DNA from: a virus
Length of the DNA stretch: 20,357 nucleotides
Virus record (IMG/VR): IMGVR_UViG_3300049734_000021
Span: 1 to 20,357 of that record
Reading direction: 5' to 3' (one strand)
Positions 2,756-12,933 of the stretch are shown here, piece by piece. The translations under genes were made by a program, and so were the position numbers. The notes under the pieces are model-generated. The model did not search any database and was not told where the DNA came from. It saw only the letters and a program-made list of their open reading frames with translations. Positions within the stretch are counted from its first letter, which is position 1. Every line of letters starts with the position of its first letter.

Positions 2756-3208
2756 CTACTCCGCTTGGCGCGATGCTGTGATAGAGAGTGCTGGCGTTGC
2801 TTTCTTACTCACTTTGTTGATAGCTGCGTCGATCAGATCAACGTTGATACCAACACGCACAAGCTCTGTACGCAGTTCGTCAACATCTGTTATAAGACGC
2901 GGACGGTTAGCAGAGAAGTTCAATGACCAGTCTTCACCATGTACGCTGGTGCCAGTCTTGACCATCAGTTCAGCAGCTTTACTGCGTACTTCAACTATCT
3001 CTTTCTCGTACTCGTCACTGACACGCGCCTTCACTGTCTCGTAGCGCTTCTCAGCGTATGAGCGCAGCATGTGTGCTGTAGCAAACTCTGCACCTAGCTG
3101 GTCTAAGCTGTCTTGAGTTGTCTTCGGTGCAGGAAAATCGTTTATACACTGTGCAACTCTTGCTTCAAGCGGCAGTTCAACTACCGCTGGCTTTGTCTTT
3201 GCTGGCAT
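2756..3208 (-). CDS. Hypothetical protein with coiled coil, possibly Gam/Gp157-like, 150 aa
   Basis: The start is ATG 3206-3208, not the in-frame upstream codon at 3244, because AAGGAGA lies 8 bases before it and the predicted promoter (3247-3274) would start transcription near 3240. A helical central part (YAEKRYETVKARVSDEYEKE) is followed by DWSLNFSANRPRLITD and a helical C-terminus with DVDELRTELVRVG. The pattern of coiled coil plus short strand plus basic C-terminus resembles Gam and siphovirus Gp157 nuclease-inhibitor proteins that neighbour phage recombination genes, but no diagnostic motif is visible, so this is a weak suggestion. First gene after its own promoter, leading the recombination operon. 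Confidence 0.75.
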   Translation of the reverse strand: MPAKTKPAVVELPLEARVAQCINDFPAPKTTQDSLDQLGAEFATAHMLRSYAEKRYETVKARVSDEYEKEIVEVRSKAAELMVKTGTSVHGEDWSLNFSANRPRLITDVDELRTELVRVGINVDLIDAAINKVSKKATPALSITASRQAE

Positions 3209-3881
3209 CGCTTGTGTCTCCTTGTGTTGTGTTGGTAGTATCATTAATTATAGCAGATGTAGGATCAGATGCAAGCCGCGACTTCTTCAAATCATCTAAT
3301 CTACGTCTGCGTATGGTTGCGTATGCATCACCCCACGGCCACTCGATGTGCTTGTAGATGACGCGCATGCGTATTTTGCGTATCACGCTGGCGTCTATTT
3401 GTAGATCATAGCCTTCTCTCATCTTCGCACTGATGAACGCTGCATCGCAGCCAATTTCTAACATCTGCATGATGCGGCGTATTTGGTAGTGCTTCATGCC
3501 GACACGTTCACGCTTGATCATGTCGGCTACGTTGTCAGCTTGTGTGCCGATGATCATATGTGTGGGATTGCAGCACCAACAGTTGTCGCACTTGTGACGC
3601 ACGACTTCACTTGAGCGCAGCTTGTAGCCTGTGTAGAGTTCATAGACGATGCGATAGACGTAGTAATCCTTTTGGCCTATCACAACACGTGGACGGTATT
3701 CGCCACGTGTACCCTTACCGTGTGCGCCTTTCCATTCCCAACATACATCAACGTCGCCATTGTGCATGTTGATACGCTGGAATACGTCGTGCAGTTCTGC
3801 GTGCTGCTTTTGCTTTCGCGGCAGCTTTTCTTTTACCGCTTCGCGTTGCTCTACTACGTGCTGCGGGATTGGCTTGTGGTT
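3177..3881 (-). CDS. HNH endonuclease (homing-type)
   Basis: Carries an HNH_3-type core: CWEWKGA, then RPRVVIG and YRIVYELYTG, then RHKCDNCWCCNPTHMIIGT and DNVADMIKRE, giving the histidine-asparagine-histidine triad at about H96, N105 and H108 with three or four nearby cysteines that could bind zinc. Such genes are usually mobile homing endonucleases in phages. Start chosen as GTG at 3879-3881 because GGAG lies 6 bases upstream; the ATG at 3894-3896 adds five residues but has no SD. The C-terminal region after about residue 130 is basic and may bind DNA. Its 5' end overlaps a small membrane ORF by up to 134 bases and its 3' end overlaps the next gene and contains that gene's promoter, which is what a late insertion into an operon would look like. 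Confidence 0.9.
   Translation of the reverse strand, partial: NHKPIPQHVVEQREAVKEKLPRKQKQHAELHDVFQRINMHNGDVDVCWEWKGAHGKGTRGEYRPRVVIGQKDYYVYRIVYELYTGYKLRSSEVVRHKCDNCWCCNPTHMIIGTQADNVADMIKRERVGMKHYQIRRIMQMLEIGCDAAFISAKMREGYDLQIDASVIRKIRMRVIYKHIEWPWGDAYATIRRRRLDDLKKSRLASDPTSAIINDTTNTTQGDTSDASKDKASGS
3247..3274 (-). promoter_or_regulatory. Sigma70-type promoter TTGCAT-N16-TATAAT
   Basis: On the minus strand TTGCAT (3269-3274) and a perfect TATAAT (3247-3252) are 16 bp apart; the -35 is extended to CTTGCATCTGAT. Transcription would begin near 3240, ahead of the SD and ATG of the 150-aa gene at 3208. It lies inside the 3' end of the HNH gene, so genes downstream keep a promoter of their own. Confidence 0.7.
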
Positions 3882-4008
3882 CACGATAGTCTCCATTCAA
3901 GCGCTTGTACAAGCGTAATGTCGCATAGGTTGGAATGAAGTACAACAGCACGAATAGAGTGACTGTTGTACTCCAATAGACGGAGTAGTAGTATACATTG
4001 TATAACAT
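3748..4008 (-). CDS. Small membrane protein candidate, 86 aa, overlapping the HNH gene
   Basis: Not recognised. The first 35 residues hold one strong membrane segment (VTLFVLLYFIPTYATL) after a tyrosine-rich N-terminus; the second half is a very basic tail rich in Lys, Arg and Ala (GKRKAAAKAKAARRTARR). Its ATG overlaps the TGA of the upstream 99-aa gene (TGATG), which supports coupled translation. The SD is weak (GAGA). The last 45 codons lie in another frame of the HNH gene's 5' end, so either the tail is an out-of-frame product of an HNH insertion or the two really overlap. The palindrome at 3992-4004 lies in codons 2-6. Confidence 0.5.
   Translation of the reverse strand: MLYNVYYYSVYWSTTVTLFVLLYFIPTYATLRLYKRLNGDYREPQANPAARSRATRSGKRKAAAKAKAARRTARRIPAYQHAQWRR
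3992..4004. repeat. 13-bp palindrome TATACATTGTATA
   Basis: Perfect match to TATACANTGTATA. It lies right after the stop of the 99-aa gene and inside the first codons of the 86-aa ORF. Confidence 0.9.
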
Positions 4009-5025: not shown

Positions 5026-5748
5026 CTACGCCGTTACAGGCGCAGGTGTAGTCTGCATAGCAGCTTCAGCCTTCTTACGCCTACGCATAAGCCAGCCTAG
5101 ACCTGCCATACCACTACCGAACAACCACACTGCACCCGGTATAGGTACAGGTGGCGGGTTGTCAAACGGTGTTGGCGTGCCACCGCTCAAGTCAACAAAC
5201 CCTGTTCGTCCATTAGTACCTGATAAGATGTCAAGCACCATGAACGCTTGTGTGTCACCGGGAGGATTGCTCGACAGTTGAGCAAAGCTTGCCAGTGTTA
5301 GACCAGCACCACTGATACTGAAGGTGGTGTCGCCGGGACCATTGCCGCCGTTCCACGTACCTTCAATACCATATTCAAACAAGCCGAAGCCATCAGCAGT
5401 CAGTGCGCCAGCGTTTTGCTGGTTAACAGGTATCACACCGGGAATGCTGAAGAGCGGCGACAAGCCTGAGTAGGTGATGGTAGGATCACCGACAAGGTTA
5501 AAGCCAAAGACAACACCTTGACCTCCATTGGCGAAGTGATTGCCATTGAGGAAGTTGATGGCGATGTCAATAGTGCCATTGCCTTGATCGGTAGCTGTGA
5601 TAGTCGCAAAGCCACTTGGCTGTGGACCACACAAGTCCGTACAGTGATCAGAACGGAACACGCCAGTTCCGACTGTCACTGCACTCGCTGCAGTTGTTGC
5701 AAGCGCGGCGAGCGACACCGCGATTGCCATGAGAGCTAGCTTTCTCAT
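5026..5748 (-). CDS. Secreted PEP-CTERM protein
   Basis: A Sec signal peptide (MRK, then LALMAIAVSLAALATTA, cleavage likely after ASA at residue 23) is followed by a low-complexity Gly/Asn/Thr-rich beta-type domain (24-195) with two cysteines (C36, C40), and then a PEP-CTERM sorting signal: proline-rich NPPP, VPIPGAVWLFGSG at 201-213, a hydrophobic helix and RRRKK at 222-226. In bacteria such proteins are cut and anchored or released by exosortase, usually linked to extracellular polysaccharide. Unlike most, 14 residues (ending TTPAPVTA) follow the basic cluster. The SD is strong (AAGGAGA). No exosortase gene lies in the window, so the host's would be needed. Codon use does not obviously differ from neighbours. 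It may have been acquired from the host and could change the cell surface during infection. Confidence 0.85.
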   Translation of the reverse strand: MRKLALMAIAVSLAALATTAASAVTVGTGVFRSDHCTDLCGPQPSGFATITATDQGNGTIDIAINFLNGNHFANGGQGVVFGFNLVGDPTITYSGLSPLFSIPGVIPVNQQNAGALTADGFGLFEYGIEGTWNGGNGPGDTTFSISGAGLTLASFAQLSSNPPGDTQAFMVLDILSGTNGRTGFVDLSGGTPTPFDNPPPVPIPGAVWLFGSGMAGLGWLMRRRKKAEAAMQTTPAPVTA

Positions 5749-10630: not shown

Positions 10631-10665
10631 TATAAAACCCGCGCTTACTAATGCAAGCGCGGGTT
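10631..10665 (-). terminator. Rho-independent terminator after the 34-aa gene
   Basis: On the minus strand an 11-bp perfect stem (AACCCGCGCTT with AAGCGCGGGTT; loop of 8) is followed by a tail reading TTATATT after the stem's final TT. It ends the transcript of the 34-aa gene. Its upstream edge shares one base with the palindrome at 10665-10677. Confidence 0.85.
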
Positions 10666-10677
10666 ATACACTGTATA
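10665..10677. repeat. 13-bp palindrome TATACACTGTATA abutting a terminator
   Basis: Perfect copy between the stop of the 34-aa gene (10681) and its terminator hairpin. Confidence 0.9.
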
Positions 10678-10680
10678 GCG

Positions 10681-10785
10681 TTAGGCTTCATTATAACCGT
10701 ACCATAGGAACAACGCGAGCAACGCTAGCGCTACAATCCAATGATCTAGCACTATATCTGATAAGCGTATAGCTGTATCGGTCAT
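10681..10785 (-). CDS. Single-pass membrane miniprotein, 34 aa
   Basis: A 34-codon gene with an ATG at 10783-10785 preceded by AAAGGAAG 9 bases upstream. The first 14 residues are polar (MTDTAIRLSD, then IVLD), followed by one membrane segment HWIVALALLALFLWY and a short polar end. It lies alone between two rho-independent terminators (10811-10842 upstream, 10631-10665 downstream), so it is expressed by read-through or by an unseen promoter. No family recognised; small phage membrane peptides often act in host membrane interference or lysis control, but nothing here proves that. Confidence 0.65.
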   Translation of the reverse strand: MTDTAIRLSDIVLDHWIVALALLALFLWYGYNEA

Positions 10786-10810: not shown

Positions 10811-10842
10811 ATAAACGCCGCTAGCATTTGCGCTAGCGGCGT
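10811..10842 (-). terminator. Rho-independent terminator after the 301-aa gene
   Basis: On the minus strand an 11-bp stem (ACGCCGCTAGC with GCTAGCGGCGT; loop of 6) is followed by TTATTCTTG. It lies 18 bases beyond the stop of the 301-aa gene, with the palindrome at 10844-10856 between them. Confidence 0.85.
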
Positions 10843-10843
10843 C

Positions 10844-10856
10844 TATACACTGTATA
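10844..10856. repeat. 13-bp palindrome TATACACTGTATA beside a terminator
   Basis: Perfect copy between the stop of the 301-aa gene (10860) and its terminator, one base from the hairpin. The bases linking stop and palindrome (TAACGC) are the same as after the 34-aa gene. Confidence 0.9.
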
Positions 10857-10859
10857 GCG

Positions 10860-11765
10860 TTAGGCTGTCTTACGCTTCGCACCACCGCGCAACGCGCGCT
10901 TGATGCTAGCTTCGGCCTTTGCATCTTCGGCCTTTGCCTTGACGCCTTCAGCCGCGAAAGCCTTACGCGCTGCAGCCTTGTCGCTATCGGACATCATTGC
11001 ATCAAGTCGCGCCCACAGCAGATGCAGCGCTTCTGTTGCCTTCGGTCCTGCAGCGATGCCCTTGCCATCAGGCTTGATGATAGCTGCAACGCTAGTGTCA
11101 ATGCGCGTCACAGCATTCGGCAATTCAGAAGGCGAGAAGCGTTCACCGCTACCGCCTTTCTTGTCGTTAGCCGCGCCGCTCTTCGCAGTAGACAAGCTTT
11201 CGCGGACATCGGCTGTGCTGGTCTTAGCTTCGATCTTAGCGCCGCTCACGTTACGCAATTGCGCGGCGTTAAAGCGCACAAGCTCAAACTCATCACCGCG
11301 CTTGACGTAGCAAGCGAACGTGTTTGAGTTTTGCACTTTGGCGATCGTCACAGCGAAGCCTTGCTTACGCAAAGCGCTAACGCCGCGATACGTATCAACC
11401 GCTCGCTGCAGCATAGTGTTGACCATGTTCAGCGATTTAGTTGATTGCTCAAACGCTGCCTTCTGTTGCTCTGTCTTTTCTTTGATACCGGCAAGACCAG
11501 CATGCGCGGTCATAAAGACATTGCCTTCAGGTGACGCCTTCCAGTAGTCGAGCAAGATAGACCTAACGCTGTCTTGCTTCTCAACAGCTAAGCTGCCGTT
11601 GAAATCAAGCTTTGCGCTAAGCGCTTCAAGCTCGCTGCCGTAAGAGTGCACAAGGTAGATCGGTCCTGTTTCAATCTCGCCTTTCATATTGGCAAGTCGC
11701 AGGACATCACCGCCGAAAGCGCTAGCGTTACGCTGTGCCGGTGCAATTACTGTTGTCTTGTTCAT
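10860..11765 (-). CDS. Hypothetical protein, 301 aa, basic Ala/Lys-rich C-terminus
   Basis: Not recognised. The N-terminal 190 residues look globular (GPIYLVHSYGSELEAL, then NVFMTAHAGLAG, then FAVTIAKVQNSNTFACYV), then a flexible Ser/Gly/Lys linker leads to a helical, lysine- and alanine-rich C-terminus ending RALRGGAKRKTA, which might bind nucleic acid. AAAGGAA lies 8 bases before the ATG at 11763-11765. It has its own promoter (11824-11851) and terminator (10811-10842), so it is a separate transcription unit next to the divergent control region. That position is where phages often put regulators or host-takeover proteins; no direct evidence for either. Confidence 0.8.
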   Translation of the reverse strand: MNKTTVIAPAQRNASAFGGDVLRLANMKGEIETGPIYLVHSYGSELEALSAKLDFNGSLAVEKQDSVRSILLDYWKASPEGNVFMTAHAGLAGIKEKTEQQKAAFEQSTKSLNMVNTMLQRAVDTYRGVSALRKQGFAVTIAKVQNSNTFACYVKRGDEFELVRFNAAQLRNVSGAKIEAKTSTADVRESLSTAKSGAANDKKGGSGERFSPSELPNAVTRIDTSVAAIIKPDGKGIAAGPKATEALHLLWARLDAMMSDSDKAAARKAFAAEGVKAKAEDAKAEASIKRALRGGAKRKTA

Positions 11766-11823
11766 TGTCTTAGTTCCTTTGCTTGTGTTGTCGTTAGCTA
11801 CGTTATTGCAGCTAACTAAGATA

Positions 11824-11851
11824 ATTATAGCATACGCAATATCACATGCAA
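11824..11851 (-). promoter_or_regulatory. Sigma70-type promoter TTGCAT-N16-TATAAT of the 301-aa gene
   Basis: TTGCAT (11846-11851) and a perfect TATAAT (11824-11829), 16 bp apart on the minus strand, with the extended -35 CTTGCATGTGAT. Transcription should start near 11817, about 50 bases before the ATG. Confidence 0.75.
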
Positions 11852-12271: not shown

Positions 12272-12348
12272 AAAAAAATGGTGTAGTGTAATAGCCTCAT
12301 GTAGAGACTACTACAGCTACACCAAGTTATACGCAATACAACACAAGC
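12272..12348 (-). ncRNA. Candidate small RNA, ~77 nt, long hairpin with U7 tail
   Basis: On the minus strand TGGTGTAG, bulged C, TGTAGTAG, TCTC, loop of 5, GAGG, CTATTACA, CTACACCA fold into a 20-bp stem, followed directly by seven Ts. Two pairs are G-U on the minus strand and would be A-C mismatches in RNA made from the plus strand, so the structure is selected for minus-strand RNA. A promoter of the phage's own family lies just upstream (12355-12383). No ORF fits. It could also be simply a strong terminator of unknown upstream transcription, though no gene lies on that side. The 5' arm includes 10 bases complementary to the predicted late leader (12516-12525). Confidence 0.55.
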
Positions 12349-12354
12349 ATATAT

Positions 12355-12383
12355 ATACTACCACACCTACAAATCACATGCAA
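12355..12383 (-). promoter_or_regulatory. Predicted promoter of the small RNA, TTGCAT-N17-TAGTAT
   Basis: TTGCAT (12378-12383) in the extended form ACTTGCATGTGAT and a weaker -10 TAGTAT (12355-12360), 17 bp apart on the minus strand. Transcription would start near 12348. Confidence 0.5.
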
Positions 12384-12440: not shown

Positions 12441-12457
12441 CCGGCCCTTCGGGCCGG
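12441..12457. other. GC-rich hairpin beside a palindrome upstream of the late promoter
   Basis: CCGGCCC-TTC-GGGCCGG is a perfect 7-bp stem, one base away from the palindrome at 12459. No U-run follows on either strand, so it is not a standard terminator. Confidence 0.5.
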
Positions 12458-12476: not shown

Positions 12477-12505
12477 TTGACAGGGCGAGCTAATCGTAGT
12501 ATAGC
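12477..12505 (+). promoter_or_regulatory. Late (structural) promoter TTGACA-N17-TATAGC
   Basis: A consensus -35 TTGACA (12477-12482), a 17-bp spacer and TATAGC (12500-12505). Transcription would start near 12512, giving a leader of about 32 bases to the first structural-arm gene, with GGAGGT at 12532. Confidence 0.75.
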
Positions 12506-12543
12506 CGATCTATAGGACTACTACACCTAGTGGAGGTAGAGCT

Positions 12544-12933
12544 ATGCCTAATTGGGCAGGTCTGTGGGACAGGCAACACGGTCAACCATACGCACTGCTG
12601 AATGAACCTGATGCTGCCATGCGTGGTATTGCTCGCATCATGGCACCACAAGCGCAGAAGGCACGTGGTGAAGTCGGTGTGAAGTTGACGGGCAGTGCTA
12701 TTGGTGCTGCAGCTTCAGCTTCAATCGGTCAAGTCAAAGCACAGCAAGCAGATGGCTTTAACATCGGTGGTGCTGTTCCTGTTGTCAACACGATTGTTGT
12801 CAGCCGTGCAACAGAGACAGCCGACGAGACTGCGCTCGATGCACAACTCCAACCAACGTTTGCACCTGCTACCTATCCGCCCGACAAGAGCGGCAACGGT
12901 GGCGGCGGCATGTTAGGTAAGCTTAGCGCCTAA
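12544..12933 (+). CDS. Hypothetical protein, 129 aa, first gene of the structural operon
   Basis: Not recognised. The N-terminus has MPNWAGLWDR and a helical stretch, the middle is Ala/Gly-rich (GSAIGAAASASIGQVKAQQ) and the C-terminus is proline- and glycine-rich (PPDKSGNGGGG). It could be a small virion or head-maturation protein, judged only by its place. GGAGGT lies 6 bases before the ATG. The next gene begins 13 bases after its stop. Confidence 0.7.
   Translation: MPNWAGLWDRQHGQPYALLNEPDAAMRGIARIMAPQAQKARGEVGVKLTGSAIGAAASASIGQVKAQQADGFNIGGAVPVVNTIVVSRATETADETALDAQLQPTFAPATYPPDKSGNGGGGMLGKLSA

Follow-up and report, generated by a model that had tools for sequence, protein, structure and literature searches.

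A candidate small RNA in a phage control region and its predicted pairing with the leader of an early gene

The window examined, an IMG/VR virus record of 20,357 bases, encodes on its minus strand a predicted small RNA (sRNA) of 77 nt (12272–12348), and the 5' part of this RNA matches the leader of orfL1, the first leftward early gene and main predicted target (10860–11765, minus strand, 301 aa). The best reading, to which we give a probability of about 0.78, is that of an antisense sRNA that acts in trans and prevents the early protein L1 from being translated. A short non-coding RNA would be made from an early-type promoter and would stop at an intrinsic terminator of its own; the 5' part of this RNA would pair in trans with the orfL1 leader, at or near the Shine-Dalgarno sequence or start codon; the pairing would keep ribosomes off orfL1 and less L1 would be made; and in some phages a second early gene would also be lowered. 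Production of the sRNA, its pairing in cells and the repression are all steps that we infer from comparing sequences.

Results

The sRNA locus in the window

The putative sRNA promoter (12355–12383, minus strand), of an early, sigma70-like type with a consensus over 29 relatives, has a -35 TTGCAT (12383–12378), a 17-nt spacer and a -10 TAGTAT (12360–12355). The start, placed by spacing from the -10, falls on G12348, the seventh base after it, and a G occupies that place in 28 of the 29 loci. The transcript would end in a terminator hairpin of 20 bp, two of them G-U, with a single bulged C (12279–12324, minus strand), followed by a U7 tract (12272–12278), so that promoter and intrinsic terminator both belong to the unit, which contains no reading frame. 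For the 77-mer the fold energy was -33.4 kcal/mol, with z -7.0 and none of 200 shuffles as good; the opposite (plus) strand here reached only -24.6, and the sRNA was thus assigned to the minus strand. The sequence-only reading had proposed a candidate phage small RNA of about 77 nt at this place, from a promoter of the phage family followed by a 20-bp hairpin and U7, and had put the fold on the minus strand by its two G-U pairs; it named no function for the RNA. Promoter and hairpin are both present there, the fold energies agree with the strand, and the same promoter type recurs on the minus strand at 11851, 10378 and 3274; it is the comparison of relatives, below, that argues for the RNA itself.

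A simple consensus scan of the window listed neither the promoter nor the terminator of the sRNA, because the site lies outside the scan thresholds. A search of Rfam gave no match to the sRNA, either at the gathering threshold or at E up to 10; the sRNA belongs to no known RNA family, and Rfam holds none that fits. The open-licence papers searched held no description of this RNA.

The phage and its relatives

The rightward genes, of which orfR1 (12544–12933, plus strand) is the first, include the large terminase subunit (TerL) and a portal protein. The nearest TerL among deposited phages was about 26% identical, no DNA match to the window was found, and the bacterial and archaeal genome collection held no relative of orfR1 or TerL. 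Related IMG/VR phages were gathered in two overlapping sets, eighty by way of TerL and sixty by way of orfR1. In these relatives, too, the control region is bordered by the divergent pair, orfL1 leftward and orfR1, at its far border, rightward.

The unit of promoter, leader, hairpin and U-tract occupies one and the same place in 34 of the 45 distinct control regions, a recurrence far beyond chance, and the 34 units reduce to 29 distinct RNAs. Across these the distance from the -10 to the U-tract is 65–129 nt, and the hairpin stems have 13–21 pairs with a single exception of 36. The control region upstream of orfR1 (668) in L041 carries a 36-pair, 91-nt hairpin instead of the usual terminator stem. 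Over the 29 loci, which were picked by promoter score, both hexamers and the TG preceding the -10 are strongly conserved. The exact promoter pattern, sought across all viral contigs, gave two loci only, both already known.

The "no RNA" state requires three changes on the TerL tree, and the simplest reading is probably that the sRNA was lost in the lines of L050, of L013/L018/L070 and of L038/L042. The sequence-only reading had held that relatives lacking the stem would speak against the RNA; both stem and promoter are kept in the main clade, apart from two or three lines that have probably lost them. In the outgroup L062 a hairpin and U5 stand behind a different promoter, TTGACA-N17-TATAAC, and no orfL1 match was evident for this unit.

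Evolution of the hairpin

The terminator stem evolves faster than the adjoining leader and promoter in the 29 sRNA loci, with pairing retained; between L026 and L028, for example, the leader is 97% identical and the hairpin 58%. Stems that diverged and yet stayed paired fit a terminator held by structure only. Covariation, which the sequence-only reading had offered as a check, came out differently by method. Covariation folding on MAFFT alignments was weak (changes on the two sides in one pair of 15 and in none of 8), since the stems are too diverged for alignment; counts anchored at the stem base showed many compensated changes between close relatives, but are supportive only, because the hairpins were picked for being paired.

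A terminator kept by structure and not by sequence, and a strong one is certainly encoded here, is also what would be expected if the hairpin did no more than shield the leftward early operon from stray transcription, the short transcript being a by-product. Such a function needs neither a conserved promoter, which begins 22–80 nt upstream of the hairpin in the 29 distinct loci, nor the matched complementarity to orfL1 described below, and we consider it very improbable.

Complementarity to the orfL1 leader

The 5' seed of the sRNA, UGCUUGUGUUGU (12338–12349, minus strand; 11 of its 12 nt lie inside the RNA if the start is 12348), is the exact reverse complement, 12 of 12 nt, of ACAACACAAGCA in the orfL1 leader (11780–11791, minus strand; -26 to -15 from the start codon). 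This predicted target site adjoins the Shine-Dalgarno sequence AAAGGA (11780–11775), within the ribosome footprint, and is predicted to be single-stranded, behind a leader hairpin. The seed/orfL1 helix ranked first among ungapped helices on both strands of the 20,357 bases.

Matched pairs of differing sequence were found in the relatives. In L099, UUGUGAUAGUCU pairs with AGACUAUCACAA, spanning the Shine-Dalgarno sequence into the start codon; the corresponding pairs are GUGUUGCGUUGA with UCAACGCAACAU in L047, GUGGUAGUCC with GGACUACCAC in L075, and UGUCAUACAC with GUGUAUGACA in L064; and in the long-form RNAs of L020, L026, L035 and L068 an internal GACAUGGUA matches UACCAUGUC, which covers the start codon. 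L003 and L059 have near-identical RNAs and rearranged orfL1 leaders, each keeping a helix of at least 12 pairs. The complementarity between sRNA and target amounts to only 8–14 nt, and the orfL1 sites in relatives lie at -30 to +11 from the start codon, within the ribosome footprint. By the ungapped measure the orfL1 helix ranked first in L003, L046, L059, L065, L072 and L099, and second in L020, L035, L047, L056 and L064. That measure was adopted after a gapped ranking had been run, in which the orfL1 site of the long-form RNAs ranked low (31 of 37, 21 of 21, 8 of 16 and 8 of 14); gapped duplex energies were replaced by ungapped helices because the energy grows with leader length.

Each sRNA was compared with its own and with other leaders by tests that only partly account for phylogeny, and whose values are optimistic because clades were assumed independent and the helix measure was fixed after exploring: own pairs had a mean of -21.8 kcal/mol, and permuting the partners gave -16.9 (sd 0.78; none of 20,000 as good); with one row for each of 13 clades the values were -22.1 for own and -16.6 (sd 0.91) for swapped partners (0 of 100,000 permutations); and against dinucleotide-shuffled leaders p was below 0.02 in 16 of 18 rows, with a combined p of 2.5e-16 over 12 clade representatives. 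The orfL1 helix alone was not significant in L029 and L051 (p 0.11 and 0.20). As a control, in five clades with a readable orfL1 leader and no RNA, matches from the control region reached 8–9 nt at most, except in L050, which has a G-U-rich run of 13 nt at -40 to -28 without promoter or terminator. As judged from these sequences, the complementarity is specific and is maintained in relatives though both partners differ.

Pairing of a stem arm with the orfR1 leader, through a direct repeat (12306–12319 and 12516–12529), was also considered and was set aside, since the stem arms diverge strongly in relatives and it is the leader seed that carries the maintained signal.

The orfL1 promoter and product

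About 500 nt separate the sRNA from orfL1 on the strand that carries both, and cis pairing of leader and ribosome binding site would use the same complementarity, as if the hairpin were a regulated terminator within one long leader and read-through reached orfL1. That arrangement seems most improbable to us: near the start of orfL1 lies a separate promoter of the sRNA's type, both in the window (TTGCAT-N16-TATAAT, 11824–11851, minus strand) and in L003, L029, L031 and L059, so that a separate, trans-acting RNA is enough, and an unsystematic search turned up no other fold in which the terminator would be opened.

For the L1 product no known homologue was found by sequence or by fold; its model is of moderate confidence (pLDDT 78.5) and gave no fold match at E < 0.001. 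L1 has 279–313 aa in 18 complete homologues and is predicted to be of mixed helix and strand. We dropped a type I toxin-antitoxin reading on account of this size, for the target should then be a small hydrophobic toxin.

Other early genes and the direction of control

A second predicted target site, ACAACACAAG (3221–3230, minus strand), is a 10-nt match to the same seed and overlaps the Shine-Dalgarno sequence of a 150-aa early gene (2756–3208, minus strand) with an early-type promoter at 3274. Homologues of this gene have an 11-nt match in L145 and L147, 8 nt in L146 and little elsewhere; L051 and L052 have 11-nt matches at another early gene, that of L052 with one G-U pair. Since these matches vary by line, orfL1 would be the chief target that they have in common, some lines having further early targets.

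A match at a second early gene in some phages would also suit an sRNA that activates orfL1, or an orfL1 leader that serves as a sponge for an sRNA directed at host or other phage mRNAs. Pairing of an sRNA at the ribosome binding site normally represses, and the sites lie on or right beside the Shine-Dalgarno sequence or start codon; the window site, moreover, is predicted to be open, leaving no masked site there for the sRNA to expose. We regard activation or a sponge as unlikely, and prefer repression of orfL1 by the sRNA. One promoter type is common to the sRNA, to orfL1 and to the leftward genes behind 10378 and 3274; from this type we infer that the sRNA and its targets are early, and because sRNA and target share it, the sRNA would serve to brake early expression.

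Other features of the window

The palindrome TATACANTGTATA has twelve exact copies in the window (starting at 3992, 4759, 7177, 7930, 9179, 10270, 10515, 10665, 10844, 11904, 12079 and 12459), or 14 with one mismatch allowed, against 0.07 expected in shuffles. Many copies are intergenic, several stand directly before a Shine-Dalgarno sequence and one is upstream of a candidate rightward promoter; the palindrome is probably the operator of a phage regulator. A candidate promoter of orfR1 (TTGACA-N17-TATAGC, 12478–12506, plus strand) lies seven bases past a TATACANTGTATA copy. A 56-nt module is repeated at 10632–10687 and 10811–10866 and consists of a GC-rich hairpin, then TATACANTGTATA and CGTTAGGCT. 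Another GC-rich hairpin, CCGGCCCTTCGGGCCGG, lies at 12441–12457, and relatives have similar ones there. A 240-aa open reading frame (5026–5748, minus strand) has a signal-peptide-like start and ends in VPIPGAVWLFGSGMAGLGWLMRRRKK, which we take to resemble the PEP-CTERM sorting signal of bacterial exported proteins and which would be odd in a phage early region.

Discussion

To our knowledge, most of what is known of phage base-pairing RNAs comes from a small number of temperate phages in culture. Of the present sRNA there are 29 natural variants to follow, and for 20 the accompanying target variant can be read as well; comparing these supports a specific RNA-RNA interaction with no need of culture, and they form a natural series for testing the co-evolution of seed and target. 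They also single out orfL1, an orphan early protein that would seem to need its own brake. A wider idea, which we offer tentatively and with considerable doubt, is that the RNA may be a post-transcriptional hub of early control throughout this uncultured phage family, the code of seed and early leader co-evolving, with each lineage silencing its own early protein and that of a superinfecting sibling, and not those of distant relatives.

The sar RNA of P22 is antisense in cis to its target region. The present sRNA (12348–12272) differs in this from sar and OOP, for it is encoded on the orfL1 strand without overlapping that gene. Two known RNAs act at the start of their target gene, ant, as is predicted here for orfL1: sar is a small antisense RNA that hinders translation initiation of a phage gene, and the c4 RNA of P1 and P7 pairs around the ant ribosome binding site and blocks translation, with specificity between relatives set by sequence differences (PMC12197685). 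The predicted pairing at the ribosome binding site of a phage mRNA thus resembles that of c4. The present RNA differs from c4 in its target, an orphan early gene; in having its own promoter and terminator; in a seed that lies in a largely open 5' part, whereas that of c4 lies in structured loops; and in showing no match to the sequence or structure of the c4 Rfam family. The OOP RNA of lambda is likewise short, with its own promoter and hairpin terminator in a phage control region, and lowers expression of a phage gene, but it overlaps the 3' end of cII by 52 bases and triggers mRNA cleavage (PMC12197685, PMC5869508), unlike the short pairing predicted here in trans at the start of the target gene. 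VpdS of phage VP882 and PreS of phage lambda are phage-encoded sRNAs that act in trans on mRNAs (PMC12197685), as is predicted for this one; those act with Hfq, and PreS has the host dnaN as target, whereas here a phage early gene is the supported target. The present RNA, which is not encoded at its target and has no sequence relationship to the RNAs above, is a new family of a known kind.
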